A program made the position numbers and the translations under genes. Under the pieces are notes generated by a model, which ran no database searches, had not been told where the DNA came from, and saw nothing but the letters and a program-made list of their open reading frames with translations. DNA of 64,000 nt from positions 1,828,001 to 1,892,000 of the forward strand of contig NZ_CP013355.1 in the NCBI RefSeq assembly GCF_001543325.1, given 5' to 3'. Positions within the stretch are counted from its first letter, which is position 1, and every line of letters begins with the position of its first letter. Positions 2,404 to 27,846 of the stretch are shown here, piece by piece. The stretch is from Lutibacter profundi. GTDB taxonomy: Bacteria; Bacteroidota; Bacteroidia; Flavobacteriales; Flavobacteriaceae.

Positions 2404-4254
2404 TTACTCCACCGTAACGGATTTTGCTAAATTTCTTGGTTGATCTACATCACAACCTCTCATTACAGCAATATAATATGATAGCAATTGTAAAGGTATA
2501 GTGGCAAGCAATGGTGTAAAGGCTTCTTCAGTTTCAGGAATCTCTATTACGTGGTCAGCAATTTCTCTAACTGTTGTATCTCCTTTTGTAACTACAGCAA
2601 TTATTTTTCCATTACGTGATTTTATTTCCTGAATATTACTCACCACTTTATCATAATGACCTTTGTTTGTAGCTATTATTACAACAGGCATAGATTCATC
2701 AATTAATGCAATTGGCCCGTGCTTCATTTCAGCAGCTGGATAACCTTCTGCATGTATGTATGAAATTTCTTTTAATTTTAATGCACCTTCAAGAGCTACG
2801 GGGAAATTATAACCTCTTCCTAAATACAGGCAATTAGAAGCGTCTTTATAAATAGCTGCTATTCTTTCAATTTCAGAACTAATTTTTAATGTCTCTTCAA
2901 TTTTAGAAGGAATCAAAGTCATTTCTTGTAAAAATGCATGAAACCTAGAATTTGAAATTTCACCTTTTAAATTTCCTAGTTTTAAAGCCATTAATGTTAG
3001 TACTGTAATTTGAGTTGTAAATGCCTTTGTTGATGCAACTCCTATTTCTGGGCCGGCATGAGTATATGCTCCTGTATCTGTTTCTCTAGCAATAGACGAC
3101 CCAACAACATTACATATTCCAAAAACAAATGCTCCTTTAGATTTAGCTAATTTTATAGCTGCTAAAGTGTCTGCTGTTTCTCCAGATTGAGATATTGCAA
3201 TTACAACATCACCTTTATTAATTACAGGGTTACGGTACCTAAATTCAGAAGCATATTCCACTTCTACAGGAATACGTGCTAAATCTTCAAATAAATATTC
3301 AGCCACCAAACCTGCATGCCAAGAAGTGCCACAAGCAACAATAATAATTTTATTTGCATTTAAAAATTTTGCAATATTATTATCAACGCTACCCATTTTA
3401 ATAATGCCATTATTTGCCAAAAGCCTTCCTCTATAGGTGTCAATAATTGCATTTGGTTGCTCATAAATCTCCTTTAACATAAAGTGATTGTAACCACCTT
3501 TTTCTATTTGCTCTAAATTTAATTTTAATTCTTGAATAGTTGGTTCAACCTCAGAATCATCTTGAATTTTATGAATTTTAATATCTCTTCCTAACTTAAT
3601 TATTGCGAGTTCCTCATCATCTAAATAAACTGCATCTTTAGTATATTCAATAAATGGAGAAGCATCAGATGCTACAAAAAATTCTTGGCTATTTTCGCCT
3701 ATACCAATAGCTATAGGGCTTCCTAAACGTGCAACAATTATTTCATCTGGTTTAGTAACGTCAAAAACAGCAATTGCATAAGCTCCAACTACATTTGTAA
3801 GTGCTAATTGAACAGCTTTTCCTAATTTGCAGTTATTGGTGGTTTTTACCTCTTCTATCAAATTAATTAAAACTTCAGTATCTGTTTCGCTTTTAAAAGT
3901 ATATCCCCTTGTTAGAAGTTCTTTTTTTAACGTATTGTAGTTTTCAATTATTCCGTTGTGGACAATTACTAAATTTCCTGAACTAGAAACATGTGGATGT
4001 GAATTTTCATTATTAGGAATACCATGAGTAGCCCAACGAGTGTGCCCTAAAGCTAAATTTCCATCAATATCTTTATTTTCAGCAAGTTTTTTTAATTCAG
4101 CAACTTTTCCTTTTGTTTTATAAAGTTGCATTCCCTTTTTATTAGTTAAAACAACTCCTGCGCTGTCATAACCTCTATATTCTAAACGCTGTAAACCGTT
4201 TATAACTATTGGGTATGCCTTTCTAAAACCTAAATAACCAACAATTCCACACAT
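2404..4254 (-). CDS. glmS: Glutamine--fructose-6-phosphate aminotransferase (isomerizing)
   Basis: A 616-residue enzyme that makes glucosamine 6-phosphate from fructose 6-phosphate and glutamine, the first step to UDP-GlcNAc for peptidoglycan and LPS. The N-terminus MCGIVGYLG carries the class II glutaminase nucleophile Cys2. Two SIS sugar-isomerase domains follow (VACGTSWHAG, SQSGETADT, then EGYPAAEMKHGPIAL), and the C-terminus is DQPRNLAKSVTVE. Length and motifs are standard. It lies downstream of the DUF4270 and starch-synthase-like genes on the same strand (14-bp gap), an order I recall as common in Flavobacteriaceae. No glmS ribozyme is seen upstream. Confidence 0.98.
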   Translation of the reverse strand: MCGIVGYLGFRKAYPIVINGLQRLEYRGYDSAGVVLTNKKGMQLYKTKGKVAELKKLAENKDIDGNLALGHTRWATHGIPNNENSHPHVSSSGNLVIVHNGIIENYNTLKKELLTRGYTFKSETDTEVLINLIEEVKTTNNCKLGKAVQLALTNVVGAYAIAVFDVTKPDEIIVARLGSPIAIGIGENSQEFFVASDASPFIEYTKDAVYLDDEELAIIKLGRDIKIHKIQDDSEVEPTIQELKLNLEQIEKGGYNHFMLKEIYEQPNAIIDTYRGRLLANNGIIKMGSVDNNIAKFLNANKIIIVACGTSWHAGLVAEYLFEDLARIPVEVEYASEFRYRNPVINKGDVVIAISQSGETADTLAAIKLAKSKGAFVFGICNVVGSSIARETDTGAYTHAGPEIGVASTKAFTTQITVLTLMALKLGNLKGEISNSRFHAFLQEMTLIPSKIEETLKISSEIERIAAIYKDASNCLYLGRGYNFPVALEGALKLKEISYIHAEGYPAAEMKHGPIALIDESMPVVIIATNKGHYDKVVSNIQEIKSRNGKIIAVVTKGDTTVREIADHVIEIPETEEAFTPLLATIPLQLLSYYIAVMRGCDVDQPRNLAKSVTVE

Positions 4255-5819: not shown

Positions 5820-6626
5820 CTATAAAACTTTGTTTAAATAAAATTCTGTGTAAGCTGTATCAAATTCACTAACAGGGAAATAGTCCAATACAGGTTTTTC
5901 CGTTGTTTTTAAAATTTCGTTTAACTCACTAGGAAGTTCTTCGCTACCTTTAATAACTGCATCAGAATTTTGAATTGCATTAATTAATATATTTACATAG
6001 TTTGGCTTAGATAAAGTTTTTATTGTTGACTCATCAATATTGTCAAACTTAATTTTTTCACTAAACTCTTTACTTAACGAACCTTCAAAACCTTTATTAT
6101 AAACAGATGTAACTATTTTGCTTTCTGAAAATAACGCATCATCTTTATAGTATTCTTTAATATATAATGGTAAAAGTGATGCCATCCATCCGTGAACATG
6201 AATAATATCTGGTGCCCAATTTAATTTTTTTACAGTTTCAATTACTCCTTTTGCAAAAAATATTGCTCGCTCATCATTATCATCAAATAACTTGTTATCT
6301 TCATCAGTATATAATGCTTTTCTTTTAAAATACTCATCATTATCAATAAAATAAACTTGCATTCTTTCTTTTGGAATGGATGCAACTTTAATAATTAATG
6401 GCATATCCATATCATTAATTACCAAATTCATTCCAGATAAACGAATAACCTCGTGTAATTGATGTCTTCTTTCATTTATTAATCCATATCTAGGTATAAA
6501 TATTCTTGTTTGCCCTCCTTTGCCATGAATCATTTTAGCGGCTTCAAATGAAGATGTTGACAATTCGTTTTCTGGCAAATAAGGTATAACTTCCGAAGAA
6601 ACAATCAATACTCTCTTATCTTTCAT
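5820..6626 (-). CDS. Starch/glycogen synthase N-terminal-domain (GT5) protein
   Basis: The 268-residue protein resembles only the N-terminal ADP-glucose glucosyltransferase domain of the GT5 family. It has SSEVIPYLP near the start, the KGGQTRIFIPRYG glycine loop (KxGGL-like) and DIIHVHGWMAS, equivalent to the HxHDWH region. The C-terminal GT-B nucleotide-sugar-binding half (another ~200 residues in GlgA) is absent. The frame simply ends here with no sign of a break. Short versions in this position upstream of DUF4270-glmS are, from memory, a flavobacterial norm, so enzyme activity as glycogen synthase should not be assumed. Confidence 0.75.
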   Translation of the reverse strand: MKDKRVLIVSSEVIPYLPENELSTSSFEAAKMIHGKGGQTRIFIPRYGLINERRHQLHEVIRLSGMNLVINDMDMPLIIKVASIPKERMQVYFIDNDEYFKRKALYTDEDNKLFDDNDERAIFFAKGVIETVKKLNWAPDIIHVHGWMASLLPLYIKEYYKDDALFSESKIVTSVYNKGFEGSLSKEFSEKIKFDNIDESTIKTLSKPNYVNILINAIQNSDAVIKGSEELPSELNEILKTTEKPVLDYFPVSEFDTAYTEFYLNKVL

Positions 6627-23396: not shown

Positions 23397-24326
23397 TTAT
23401 TTTAAATTTCTTCTTATTTTTGTTTCTCTTGTTACTTTAGTTCGTTTTCTACCTTCGTTACTTACAGTTTCTTTGGCTGAACTAGATTTTAAGTATTGAA
23501 TATATCCAACTCCAGTAAACTCATAAGTTGTTCCAGAACTTATATGGTACAAACTAATCTTTTCATCATTTATAACGGTTAACTCAAACTCCTCATTGCC
23601 CACAGAATCATAATCTAATGTTAAAATTTTTAGATTGTCATATCCATGTACATTTGCTACTGAGTAACTTCCAACATAATCCCAATATATATTATCAATA
23701 TTTGTGCCAACTTTATCTTGAGAAGAATAAAATGTTGTAATATTTTCAGGGGTAAAAGCTAAAAAGTTTTCATTATCAAATTCATTTAAATTACCTGTAG
23801 TGCTTACATCTGTTTTTTCCCAAGCATCATATTCTTGTAAAAAATATTCTATGTTGTCATAAAATATTTGATCAAAATCAAAACTATTTTTTTGATAACC
23901 TTCTAAATAATAGCTCACATTATTATAATTATCTACTAGTTTTAATCTATCAACTGATAATTGGACAACTTCAAAATTAAAATATCCATCTAAATCATGG
24001 TCTATTTCTAAACTTCCATTAAAAGTATCGTAATACCCTACCAAAATACCATATCCGTTTCCTGTAGCTCCAATTCCAACTAAGTTATTGTTTGCATACA
24101 ATTTTCCATTAATAAATGATACCGTAAAAGCTTTTGATAAAAAAGGAACATCTCCAAATCCAGTTGTTTGATTGTAATCTATATACCATAAATCATACGC
24201 AGTTACAACATCTTCTAAATCTACATAATATGGGGCATTAAACTCTTCTACTATAACACTACATGATGTAAACAATATTCCAGCTACTACGGTTGTAAAA
24301 AGTAATTTTAAAGTTCTCATAATCAT
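23397..24326 (-). CDS. Hypothetical flavobacterial lipoprotein
   Basis: A 309-residue predicted lipoprotein with a signal ending LFTSCSV (Cys22). The body contains VVTAYDLWYIDYNQTTG, then VSFINGKLYANNNLVGIG and a GYYD-rich beta segment. I recall a flavobacterial family of this look that is sometimes misnamed a nicotinate mononucleotide adenylyltransferase; nothing in the sequence supports such an enzyme. The last 25 residues are highly basic (KRTKVTRETKIRRNLK). ATG at 24320 (MRTLKLLF) is an equally good start. Function unknown. Confidence 0.7.
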   Translation of the reverse strand: MIMRTLKLLFTTVVAGILFTSCSVIVEEFNAPYYVDLEDVVTAYDLWYIDYNQTTGFGDVPFLSKAFTVSFINGKLYANNNLVGIGATGNGYGILVGYYDTFNGSLEIDHDLDGYFNFEVVQLSVDRLKLVDNYNNVSYYLEGYQKNSFDFDQIFYDNIEYFLQEYDAWEKTDVSTTGNLNEFDNENFLAFTPENITTFYSSQDKVGTNIDNIYWDYVGSYSVANVHGYDNLKILTLDYDSVGNEEFELTVINDEKISLYHISSGTTYEFTGVGYIQYLKSSSAKETVSNEGRKRTKVTRETKIRRNLK

Positions 24327-24422
24327 TTCTTTTTGGTTACAACTTTATAGTTTCAATTTTTATGCCATAAATTTCAAAGCACAACAACAAAGGTGTAAAA
24401 TACTGATTATAAATACTTTGTA

Positions 24423-24917
24423 TTATTGTTTTTTCTTCATAGGGTACTGAACTGCTTTTACTTCAATAACATTTTTTATCTTATAAAAATACTTTTTATC
24501 CTTATAAATATAGCTTACAACTGCTTCGTTATCTCCCAATGTAAAAGGTATATTTAAAGATGTTTTAGGTGGTATATTCCCAAATTCTTTTATTGATTTT
24601 TTTTCTAAAATAAAATCATGTTCTTTATTATGAAGCGTAAAACTACCTACAAAAGTGTTAGATGTAACACTTAAATCTTTCTTTAATTTCGTTTTCATAT
24701 TTCTGAAGAAAACCGTATCTAAATTAATTTTAGGGTTATCTATCGTAACATAAATAGTAATTCCTCTTACTCCTGGCTGTCCACCAACCCAGCTATTGTA
24801 CGTAGTTTTAATAATTTTAAAAGGAGGGTTGTTTTTGAACGTATTTTTTGATGCGCTACAAAAAGAAAATGCAAAAAGGATAATTATTGAGATTGAAAAA
24901 CTTGCTAATTTATTCAT
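24423..24917 (-). CDS. Hypothetical lipoprotein
   Basis: A 164-residue protein with a hydrophobic N-terminus ending FAFSFCSAS (Cys20 as probable lipid site). The body YNSWVGGQPGVRGITIYVTI looks beta-rich and may be a small immunoglobulin-like fold. No family function is recognised. A full-match -7 element sits 16 bp upstream. It is separated by 96 bp from the next lipoprotein gene. Confidence 0.7.
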   Translation of the reverse strand: MNKLASFSISIIILFAFSFCSASKNTFKNNPPFKIIKTTYNSWVGGQPGVRGITIYVTIDNPKINLDTVFFRNMKTKLKKDLSVTSNTFVGSFTLHNKEHDFILEKKSIKEFGNIPPKTSLNIPFTLGDNEAVVSYIYKDKKYFYKIKNVIEVKAVQYPMKKKQ

Positions 24918-24932
24918 ATTATTATTTTAAAT

Positions 24933-24940
24933 CAAATATA
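24933..24940 (-). promoter_or_regulatory. candidate -7 element for the 24423-24917 lipoprotein gene
   Basis: Minus strand TATATTTG, a full match to TAnnTTTG, 15 bp before the ATG. A TTTG lies 14 bp upstream, somewhat too close for a standard -33. Confidence 0.45.
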
Positions 24941-24960
24941 CACAAAGTATGTACCAAACT

Positions 24961-24993
24961 AAAAGAGCTTATCAAAATTTGATAAACTCTTTT
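24961..24993 (-). terminator. intrinsic terminator of the ATP synthase operon
   Basis: Arms 24961-24976 and 24978-24993 form a 16-bp stem (AAAAGAG plus TTATCAAA halves). The one non-Watson-Crick pair is G-U on the minus-strand RNA but C-A on the plus strand, so the structure suits minus-strand transcription. It ends the atp operon about 340 bp after the atpG stop, beyond the repeat array. Confidence 0.75.
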
Positions 24994-25018
24994 AACTATT
25001 AACCAATTTAAATTTTAC

Positions 25019-25352
25019 GAATTATTAACCCCTCTGCGCTTTTTTAAACATTTGGCTACGCCTAATTGTTTAACGCCTCTGTTCTTTTAAACATTTGGCT
25101 ACGCCTAATTGTTTAACGCCTCTGCTCTTTTTTAAACATTTGGCTGCGCCTAATTGTTTAACGCCTCTGCTCTTTTTTAAACATTTGGCTGCGCCTAATT
25201 GTTTAACGCCTCTGCTCTTTTTTAAACATTTGGCTGCGCCTAATTGTTTAACGCCTCTGCTCTTTTTTAAACATTTGGCTGCGCCTAATTGTTTAACGCC
25301 TCTGCTCTTTTTTAAACATTTGGCTGCGCCTAATTGTTTAACGCCTCTGCTC
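25019..25352 (-). repeat. 45-bp tandem repeat array derived from the 3' end of atpG
   Basis: Seven copies of CTAATTGTTTAACGCCTCTG begin at 25062, 25105, 25150, 25195, 25240, 25285 and 25330, with spacing 43, 45, 45, 45, 45 and 45 bp. A degenerate eighth copy lies at about 25019-25061. The last copy (25330) is the actual 3' end of atpG. Each unit therefore repeats, on the minus strand, the codons for AEALNN plus the TAG stop, followed by about 24 bp of untranslated sequence. The five atpG-proximal units are near identical; the distal ones carry GCTACG for GCTGCG and a 2-bp deletion. Each unit contains TGTTTAA and TTAAACA, able to pair as a 7-bp stem. Confidence 0.97.
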
Positions 25353-26190
25353 CACCAACAATTTCAAGAATTTCATTGGTGATTGCTGCCTGACGTGCTT
25401 TATTGTATTTTAATAGTAGATCGTCTCTTAATTCTGTTGCATTATCTGTAGCTTTATGCATCGCAGTCATACGTGCACCATGTTCAGAAGCAAAAGAATC
25501 TCTAATTGCTTTGTATAATTGTGTTTTTAATGATTTTGGTATTAATTCTAATACAATTTTTGCTTTAGATGGTTCAAAAATATAATCTGTATTTACCTTT
25601 ATAGCTTCTTTTACTGGTTCAATTGGTAAAAACTGTTCAATAGTTTCAATTTGAGTTGCTGCATTTTTAAATCTATTGTATATCAATTCAACCTTATCAT
25701 ATTCACCTGAAGCAAATAAATCCATTACTCTTTCTGCAATAACTGCAACTTTATCAAAAGTTAATTCTTCATAAATTTCATTATGCTTTTCAACAACAGT
25801 ATAATTTTTCGCTAAAATAGCATCTCCTTTTTTACCAATAGTTAAAAGATCAACTTGTTTCCCTTTATAATTATCTTCAATATTTTGGATAGTTGCCTTA
25901 ATTATATTTGAATTAAAGCCGCCACACAAGCCTCTATTTGAAGTAATTACAACTAATAATACTTTTGAAACTTCTTTTTGCTCAGAATAAACTCCTCCTA
26001 CTTCACTATCTAATGTTGCACTTAAACTTTGCAAAAGTTCTGTTAACTTATTAGCATACGGTCGCATTTTAGTAATTGCATCTTGTGCTTTTTTCAACTT
26101 TGCTGCTGATACCATTTTCATGGCACTAGTAATTTGCATTGTTGAACCAATGGATGTAATTCTATTACGTATTTCTTTTAAGTTTGCCAT
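25330..26190 (-). CDS. atpG: F1Fo ATP synthase subunit gamma
   Basis: A 286-residue rotor shaft subunit. N-terminal helix MANLKEIRNRITSIGSTMQITSAMKMVSAAK-like sequence and the C-terminal helix (ASEHGARMTAMHKATDNA, then KARQAAITNEILEIVGGAEALNN) are both conserved. The C-terminus is intact and of the usual form. What is odd is downstream: the last six codons and the stop belong to a 45-bp unit repeated at least six more times in the 3' region. It is the last gene of the atp operon here, 78 bp after atpA. Confidence 0.98.
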   Translation of the reverse strand: MANLKEIRNRITSIGSTMQITSAMKMVSAAKLKKAQDAITKMRPYANKLTELLQSLSATLDSEVGGVYSEQKEVSKVLLVVITSNRGLCGGFNSNIIKATIQNIEDNYKGKQVDLLTIGKKGDAILAKNYTVVEKHNEIYEELTFDKVAVIAERVMDLFASGEYDKVELIYNRFKNAATQIETIEQFLPIEPVKEAIKVNTDYIFEPSKAKIVLELIPKSLKTQLYKAIRDSFASEHGARMTAMHKATDNATELRDDLLLKYNKARQAAITNEILEIVGGAEALNN

Positions 26191-26268
26191 TTTTAGCCTT
26201 TACGAACCTCTTTATATAGAGGTAAATTAAATTTTAATTTTTACTCAAATAAAATATTCGATAGTAAT

Positions 26269-27846
26269 TTAAGCGTATTTTGCTGAAATTTCTTTAGCTG
26301 CATTAGTTAATGTGTCTATAACCTCATCAGTTAATTTTCCTGCCTTTAAAATATCTAAAGTATCTCTATGTTTTGCATTTAAATACGCTAAATAATCTTT
26401 TTCAAATTCTTTTATTTTATCAACAGGAACATTTCTTAATAGGTTTTTTGACCCTGCATAAATAATTGCAATTTGATCTTCAACTTTAAAAGGATCTGCT
26501 TGGTTTTGTTTTAAAATCTCAACATTACGCTTTCCTTTTTCAATTACGCTCATAGTTGCAGCATCTAAATCTGATCCAAATTTAGCAAATGCTTCTAACT
26601 CACGATATTGAGCTTGATCTAATTTTAAAGTACCTGCTACTTTTTTCATAGATTTAATTTGAGCATTTCCTCCAACACGAGATACTGAAATACCAACGTT
26701 AATTGCTGGGCGCACACCTGAGTTAAATAAATCTGACTCTAAGAAAATTTGACCATCAGTAATAGAAATTACATTTGTTGGTATGTAAGCTGATACATCT
26801 CCTGCTTGAGTTTCAATAATTGGTAAAGCGGTTAAAGAACCTCCTCCTTTTATCATTCCTTTTATTGAATTTGGAACGTCATTCATTTGAGTAGCAATAG
26901 TATCATCTTTAATTACTCTTGCTGAACGCTCTAGCAAACGAGAATGTAAATAAAATACATCACCTGGATATGCTTCACGCCCTGGTGGACGACGTAACAA
27001 TAATGAAATTTCACGATATGCAACTGCTTGTTTAGATAAATCATCATAAACAATTAAAGCAGGGCGACCTGTGTCTCTAAAATATTCTCCAATAGCAGCA
27101 CCTCCCATTGGAGCATAAACTTGCATTGATGCAGAGTCTGATGCGTTGGCAGCAACAATAGTTGTATAAGCCATTGCTCCTTTTTCTTCTAATAAACTAG
27201 CAATTGCAGCAACGGTAGAGGCTTTTTGACCAATTGCAACATAGATACAATATACTGGTACACCAGCATCGTAAAATTCTTTTTGATTGATAATGGTGTC
27301 AATTGCAACAGTTGATTTACCTGTTTGACGGTCACCAATAATAAGTTCACGCTGTCCTCTTCCAACAGGAATCATAGCATCAATAGCTTTTACTCCTGTT
27401 TGTAGTGGTTCTGTTACAGGCTCTCTAAATATAACACCTGGTGCTTTACGCTCTAATGGCATTTCAAAGGTTTCTCCCTGTATTGGGCCTTTTCCATCAA
27501 TTGGAAGCCCTAATGTATTAACTACACGCCCAACGATACCTTCACCAACTTGTAAAGACGCAATTTTTTTTGTGCGTTTTACAACAGCTCCTTCTTTAAT
27601 TACCTTAGAGTGTCCTAATAAAACAACACCTACATTATCTTCTTCTAAGTTTAATACAATACCTTCCAATCCGTCTTCAAACTCAACTAGTTCTCCGTAT
27701 TGAACATTTGCCAAACCATATACACGAGCTATTCCATCACCCACTTCTAGTACGGTTCCTACTTCATCTAAAGAGGCTGAACCTTCAAATCCTGCTAATT
27801 GTTGTTTTAAAATCGCTGATACTTCAGCTGGTTTTATTGATGCCAT
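26269..27846 (-). CDS. atpA: F1Fo ATP synthase subunit alpha
   Basis: A 525-residue F1 subunit with a non-catalytic nucleotide site. It has the N-terminal [22 protein letters not shown], Walker [26 protein letters not shown] and the arginine-finger segment [11 protein letters not shown]. Length is slightly above 500, normal for Bacteroidota. It lies between atpH and atpG in the standard order. Confidence 0.98.

Follow-up and report, generated by a model that had tools for sequence, protein, structure and literature searches.

A hairpin enclosing the stop codon of atpG and tandem copies of the gene end in Lutibacter profundi and its relatives

The array downstream of atpG

The window analysed here is a stretch of 64,000 nucleotides (positions 1,828,001-1,892,000) from the genome of the marine bacterium Lutibacter profundi. 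On its minus strand lies atpG, the product of which, AtpG, is the F1 gamma subunit (286 amino acids; Pfam PF00231, E 1.4e-100). The same strand has atpA and atpB further upstream, and atpG is apparently the last gene of the atp operon. On the minus strand, 3' of the atpG stop codon, five exact repeats of the last 21 nt of the gene are followed by a sixth with a single mismatch and by a seventh, decayed copy that has no stop codon (Table 1). The spacers between these gene-end copies are 24 nt long, with a single exception of 22 nt that makes one unit 43 nt rather than 45 nt. A first-pass annotation had described seven copies, plus a decayed one, of a 45-bp unit built of the last six codons and TAG of atpG and 24 bp of downstream sequence. 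The composition of the unit is borne out and the array is real, with six further copies and the decayed seventh; the uniform length does not hold for the 43-nt unit. Tandem Repeats Finder placed the array at 25025-25352 with a period of 45, 7.3 copies, 96% matches and a score of 607, compared with 69 for the second-best array in the window. Hairpin units 1-5 are identical, while in units 6 and 7 the tip GCA is replaced by GTA and unit 6 is short by 2 nt. The array was found once in the single-contig genome of 2,966,978 bases. Beyond it lies an inverted repeat resembling a terminator, AAAAGAG...CTCTTTT, and the array sits between the atpG stop and this repeat, which the annotation had taken for the operon terminator; a terminator scan of 24300-26300 listed none, this repeat included.

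Table 1. Coordinates of atpG, the gene-end copies, the hairpins and the terminal inverted repeat, as positions in the window.
Feature	Position	Strand	Basis and remarks
atpG	25330..26190	-	ORF list, PF00231; stop TAG 25332-25330; last 21 nt (25350-25330) are the first gene-end unit
Hairpin 1, around the true last codons and stop of atpG	25308..25344	-	covariance model, 47.1 bits (the window unit is itself among the model's 47 sequences), and fold
Gene-end copy 1, exact	25285..25305	-	sequence comparison
Hairpin 2	25263..25299	-	covariance model
Gene-end copy 2, exact	25240..25260	-	sequence comparison
Hairpin 3	25218..25254	-	covariance model
Gene-end copy 3, exact	25195..25215	-	sequence comparison
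Hairpin 4	25173..25209	-	covariance model
Gene-end copy 4, exact	25150..25170	-	sequence comparison
Hairpin 5	25128..25164	-	covariance model
Gene-end copy 5, exact	25105..25125	-	sequence comparison
Hairpin 6, GTA tip, 22-nt spacer	25083..25119	-	covariance model and letters
Gene-end copy 6, one mismatch	25062..25082	-	sequence comparison
Hairpin 7, GTA tip	25040..25076	-	covariance model and letters
Decayed gene-end copy, no stop codon	25017..25037	-	letters
Terminator-like inverted repeat	24961..24993	-	letters; absent from terminator-scan output

Duplication of the gene end was not seen at the other genes scanned. A scan of 395 ORFs (≥80 amino acids) in 464 kb of the L. profundi genome (G000) gave atpG as the sole case, with the next-best ORF at 5 mismatches in 21, which is the control level, and sampled stretches of three other genomes gave none (G279, 0 of 130 ORFs; G030, 0 of 81; G073, 0 of 57; best 5-6 mismatches). 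End duplication is therefore no general habit of the genes scanned.

The plus strand of the array contains an ORF of 95 amino acids (25095-25382) built of a 15-residue repeat, which exists because the window unit is 45 nt long. A plus-strand coding role was considered and rejected: the length of the first unit is divisible by three in just 16 of the 53 loci with copies, which is the chance level, so that the multiple-of-three length remarked on in the first-pass annotation applies to the 45-nt units of the window and is not general.

Fold and covariation of the gene-end hairpin

Folding of the window unit yielded a GGC/GCC stem with a GCA tip on top of the TTAAACA/TGTTTAA pairing that had been noticed earlier. 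Those two segments can indeed pair; the true hairpin is larger, and with the extra stem the AAT codon and the TAG stop lie inside it. The enclosed stop codon, the covariation and the recurrence at atpG in two families were not part of the first-pass annotation.

The stem was analysed in an alignment (A1) of 47 of 48 first units, one unit with an N being left out and the window supplying one of the 47. Because the pattern used to select its rows predetermines part of the columns (R-CG, G-Y, AAA), information comes only from the interior and from the columns that covary. In these units AATT, a kept A-A mismatch, the third base of the stop codon, R and C face G, Y, C/T and AATT. Above this stem, long forms of the hairpin continue through a GNA/GNA internal loop into a helix of 2 bp, GC (or AC/GT), that ends in a tip of 3-4 nt, while in short forms, including that of the window, a GNA/GNNA tip alone stands above the stem. 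Among 45 long units, GNA is present on the left side of the internal loop in 41, on the right in 33 and on both in 31, with a variable middle base; parsing gave no inner pair for 9 of the 45. Of the remaining 36 long units, 22 have a GNA or GNNA tip and one a GNRA tip; among short units, 8 of 9 tips are GNA or GNNA. The tips thus match the DNA rule (GNNA) better than the RNA rule GNRA; loops of the GNA/GNNA type closed by G-C pairs are given as the rule for extremely stable DNA mini-hairpins in PMC4686876. The A-A mismatch (column 14 with 36) is retained in 58 of 61 loci from a relaxed-pattern search, and the outer helix (columns 4-8) is paired in only about 60% of sequences.

Pair 16-34 of A1 is AU in 22 units, GC in 22 and GU in 3, and is broken in none of the 47. 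Pair 15-35, which involves the third base of the stop codon, is GC in 44 and AU in 3, and the inner pair 21-28 is GC in 23, AU in 6 and CG in 3, the remainder being other or broken. Covariation was judged on five measures, two of which did not go beyond shuffles. The covariation score was 0.167 compared with 0.091 (s.d. 0.009) for shuffled alignments, none of 500 of which reached it, and with 0.016-0.067 for slid versions; for the core helices alone it was 0.210 versus 0.106. The paired fraction also exceeded all 500 shuffles and every slid version. Double-sided pair changes (64 of 500 shuffles; 19 of 500 in the core-helix run) and further pair types (30 of 500; 54 of 500) were not clearly beyond shuffles. 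In tree-aware contrasts across supported branches, Y followed R in about six of eight independent cases and opposed it in none (median p 0.03, range 0.03-0.125), and the stop-codon contrasts, only four pairs, gave p 0.125. RNAalifold on its own retained three pairs. Pairing was as good in downstream parsed units (65 of 66) as in first units (47 of 47), so that the working stop codon is not what maintains it. Correction of the palindrome by template switching could yield equal covariation.

RNA folding energies were unexceptional (z of −1.06 to −1.67 for six sequences), and folding as DNA gave z of −2.68 for the window unit and −1.07 and −1.36 for two other units. A search of Rfam 15 returned no match for window positions 24800-25500 with E up to 1, nor for seven carrier loci at the gathering threshold. 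Some inner copies in genomes G274 and G139 have lost the stop codon (AATTGG, AATTCG) and retain the arms. At the atpG end of G139 (locus L319) the protein ends EALAQ with a TAA stop and the inner copies read AATTCG; here, therefore, the stop has moved and the hairpin arms have been kept.

Distribution among relatives and restriction to atpG

A gene end with the hairpin enclosing the stop codon is present at atpG in 17 of 29 genus relatives. Carriers make up 17 of 77 named relatives, 3 of the 23 family genomes most similar to the window, and 6 of 37 further family genomes (7 of 38 counting G243), the 37 being the next 40 in rank less three repeats of named loci, all non-carriers, with the carrier G243 skipped as it had been fetched earlier. 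Of 185 distinct atpG loci, 60 are carriers as judged by a gene-end copy or the hairpin motif; this set is enriched, some loci having been fetched for the motif, and the preceding fractions are therefore the fairer figures. Weak carriers include L213, L005 and L006, and the spacer letters of L076, L085 and L263 differ from those of other carriers. A genome of another family of the same order, G038, has three units at atpG. Since most family genomes are without the hairpin, the element is dispensable. A literature survey by title or start of abstract, which had subscription papers such as the early Flavobacterium genome papers outside its scope, gave no description of this element at atpG.

Comparison of the atpG ends of relatives, as the first-pass annotation had advised, gave one to nine copies in 53 of 148 loci. 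The number of copies differs between species, each represented by one genome, and is one in 28 of the 53. A gene-end copy lies within 60 nt of atpG in 35 of 109 loci with downstream sequence (genus relatives and 80 named loci, including the window and two repeats, with L082 cut off). Unit length and loop vary freely among loci. Three draft contigs (G034:C91, G034:C305 and G003:C216) stop at the array, and copy numbers from draft genomes are therefore lower bounds. Growth of the array from the gene side, proposed earlier for the window, fits the window itself; at L060, L228, L090 and L047, by contrast, the inner copies are closer to each other than to the gene end.

In the L. profundi genome all seven hairpin matches with up to three mismatches lie inside the array, and a looser pattern adds one. 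Across 299 family genomes the strict pattern had 127 matches in 79 genomes, at least 46 of which, in at least 20 genomes, adjoin atpG; by a hand tally, the other 81, checked for adjacency in part, compare with 73 for the reversed pattern. In 38 genus genomes, 15 matches with at most one mismatch are at atpG except for one in G034 and two in G003 near contig ends, where they adjoin a gene resembling the one after atpG in the window; with two mismatches, 3 of 8 are at atpG. A search of 14 more named carriers gave 16 matches (control, 7), 14 of which agree in sequence with the atpG units of the genome concerned. Covariance-model matches at E<0.002 were found in six of 395 genomes, one of them G038, and all adjoin atpG; the scan scored 15 candidates per genome and so missed carriers, and its three weakest matches (G218, G534 and G499) are non-carriers.

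The bare core without arms is less restricted. RCGNAGC-N4-GCGNAGY had 8 of its 42 matches in 23 carriers away from atpG (reversed control, 3), and with an N3 loop 3 of 11 (control, 2). The armless core also caps other palindromes with perfect arms in G023, G230 and G701: five palindromes off atpG (L422/L367 on G023:C20, L343 in G230 and L345 in G701) have differing perfect arms of 6-7 bp under a similar cap. Another G023 contig (L373, G023:C212:1-5031) encodes a DNA methylase (PF01555) and a MutH-like protein (PF02976) between 158-bp direct repeats (185-342 and 2335-2492), and bears four palindromes with differing perfect arms of 5-11 bp and a GNA-GC-loop-GC-GNA cap like that of the G023 atpG hairpin. 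In the whole G153 genome GNAGCGNAGCGNA has 70 matches versus 3 for its reverse. A wider role for this tip module was considered and rejected, as 340 kb of G153 contains one module with perfect arms of at least 5 bp (0.33 expected). Perfect-armed modules number 2 in G000, compared with 2.0 expected, and 0 in the G279, G030 and G073 samples and the 80 named loci. The full hairpin pattern has no match in viral contigs. A phage carrier was rejected, the sole viral match to an atpG end lying within a protein with a similar peptide on a contig with tail-like proteins and no adjoining atpG, and two viral matches to the short core likewise resemble coding sequence with no atpG adjoining.

Origin, possible function and comparison with known systems

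The hairpin has been gained or lost repeatedly. On a FastTree tree of one short gene, atpG, the carrier label requires 42 changes compared with 51 when shuffled, and only 1 of 500 shuffles is as low, so that carriers are somewhat clustered; at least 12 changes are forced by supported branches. The atpG gene ends in AATTAG in 51 of 60 carriers versus 16 of 125 non-carriers, and AATTAG ends 4 of 371 sampled G000 ORFs, atpG included. In Tenacibaculum, the tail past the last copy at L048 resembles the sequence after the stop codon in hairpin-free relatives (L037 and L038), and the unit therefore sits upstream of the old gene end. Over 137 pairs with a carrier and 263 free-free pairs, which overlap, the last 18 nt of the gene diverge at 1.42 times the upstream rate in the former and 1.00 times in the latter, which fits exchange between the working gene end and its copies. 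Codon differences between copies and gene comprise 132 synonymous and 102 nonsynonymous changes where 19% synonymous is expected at random, and in codons 2-6 they are 69 versus 26 in last copies and 38 versus 33 in inner copies; all these counts are overstated because copies within one array are not independent. Such an excess would be as expected if copies sometimes become the gene end; it had also suggested that units carry a foreign gene end, a reading rejected because the gene's own end proved the closer one to free relatives. At L240, in another family (G042:C12:126000-134500), a 2.5-kb stretch with four ORFs of more than 100 amino acids lies 3' of atpG, the gene end being present on either side of it as a direct repeat of 84 bp (88%; 3893-3976 and 6406-6489); on inspection of its ORF list no integrase was noticed.

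The occurrence of the same hairpin at atpG in many relatives suggests an unrecognised gene-end element and not a one-off stutter. With moderate confidence, we propose an old REP-like hairpin specific to atpG. Its units, each with a copy of the gene end, would multiply through slippage that the hairpin itself provokes, and at the stop it may influence ribosomes or the mRNA. A unit comprises the last ∼21 nt of atpG (six codons and the stop) and a spacer, which jointly fold into an imperfect hairpin. A hairpin lying between direct repeats favours slippage, and slippage of this kind, or unequal exchange between the gene-end repeats, would add and remove units. In vitro, archaeal polymerases slip on a hairpin template according to PMC4134008. 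Every copy restates the native C-terminus, and any number of units therefore leaves AtpG intact, in agreement with the earlier view that units could be added or removed harmlessly; copies would occasionally become the working gene end. The predicted hairpin would begin within the last codon, before the stop, and its most likely activity would be to slow termination or to affect how the 3' end of the atp mRNA is translated or how stable it is. By analogy, this position would fit ribosome stalling, which PMC12306157 reports for REP hairpins of E. coli that lie no more than 15 nt from a stop codon. A bolder version, which we consider unlikely, is an element restricted to the stop codon of one essential gene, with a constant GNA/GNNA-type tip, arms built from the end of the host gene, recurrent gain and loss in two families and a gene end that is always restored, that tunes ATP synthase output.

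A neutral, mutation-driven relic is a serious rival that explains much as well, although we regard it as somewhat improbable. According to this explanation, an ancestral chance foldback at the end of atpG kept multiplying and deleting by slippage, with its arms corrected by template switching and no benefit to the cell. The patchy presence on the atpG tree (42 versus 51 changes, at least 12 forced), the equally good pairing of untranslated units and the free variation of unit length and loop are all in its favour. However, 58 of 61 loci keep the A-A mismatch, which an unconstrained change on the 3' side would remove. In 31 of 45 long units both sides of the GNA/GNA loop are intact despite its variable middle base, and such a relic would seldom be expected to persist in two families.

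Decidedly less probable is a mobile, site-specific single-strand hairpin element, REP/IS200-like or recombinase-like, that has the atpG stop codon as its target and inserts there anew in separate lineages. Such an element would account for the repeated gain or loss, for tips like those of the extremely stable DNA mini-hairpins (PMC4686876), and for the bare core off atpG (8 of 42 and, with N3, 3 of 11) and on other perfect-armed palindromes. On the other hand, the armed hairpin is no commoner elsewhere than the control, the full pattern is absent from the viral contigs, and the presence of Y1 transposase does not track carriers, G000 having a broken fragment only. It also predicts that the unit brings a foreign working gene end, which failed: at 57 loci (one more, of <80% identity, left out) the gene's own end is nearer than the last copy to the end of the nearest free relative in 34, farther in 8 and tied in 15.

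It is very improbable that the array serves, as one option of the first-pass annotation had it, to protect the 3' end of the atp mRNA, its several hairpins between stop and terminator holding up 3' exonucleases and so prolonging the life of the transcript: the units of the window lie before a terminator-like repeat and should be transcribed, but 28 of 53 loci have one copy only, a terminator hairpin may already guard the end, and the stability of a single unit is modest. An assembly artefact is virtually negligible, for while tandem repeats misassemble at times and draft contigs of G034 and G003 end at the array, the same architecture is present in other genomes and the LP1T genome was assembled from PacBio reads (76x, HGAP v2) with a mean length of 5,671 bp, or 5.7 kb compared with 0.33 kb for the array, as given in PMC5219744.

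Among known systems, the hairpin resembles the REP/BIME sequences of enterobacteria in being a short imperfect palindrome beside a stop codon. REPs are dispersed through the genome, whereas the atpG hairpin is at one gene, encloses its stop codon and is accompanied by a duplicated gene end; many dispersed extragenic copies were not found, the seven G000 matches all being in the array and those off atpG in the family being at control level. Nor does a Y1/RAYT transposase accompany it consistently, as 7 of the 17 genus carriers (G008, G009, G017, G020, G024, G027 and G030) have no match to PF01797 and G000 has one PF01797 fragment with an internal stop. MITEs and elements derived from insertion sequences occupy multiple genomic locations, which the hairpin does not, although the armless core does occur elsewhere. 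Like minisatellites and VNTRs, the arrays consist of head-to-tail units of ∼45 nt, within the 10-100 bp of such tandem repeats, and differ in copy number between species; unlike them, the unit is a gene end with a hairpin, at the same gene and with the same fold in other letters in two families. Integrative elements with attachment sites at gene 3' ends restore the 3' end of the target gene by duplication. The restored gene end is alike at atpG, where the units are without payload and the spacers are mostly about 20-35 nt. An integron attC site pairs RYYYAAC and GTTRRRY core sites; by eye, the window unit, the only one inspected, has GTTAAAC and no RYYYAAC partner. The tips, mostly GNA/GNNA and closed by G-C in many units, are like the d(GCGNAGC)/GNNA mini-hairpins described in PMC4686876, which are short synthetic fragments, whereas the atpG tip stands in a longer, covarying gene-end hairpin.

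We conclude that the element is a variant of palindromic gene-end repeats, peculiar in its tie to one gene and the stop codon of that gene. Palindromic repeats that follow genes tend to be regarded as selfish or generic and as scattered over the genome. The present hairpin family belongs, in two bacterial families, to one core gene; it folds around the stop codon, and the gene-end copy that comes with it makes gain or loss of the hairpin harmless. An active hairpin would mean that a central enzyme is controlled at its stop codon and would offer a clean natural setting in which to follow hairpin-driven duplication; an inert one would be a sharp test of how long a neutral palindrome maintained by mutation can persist at one site.
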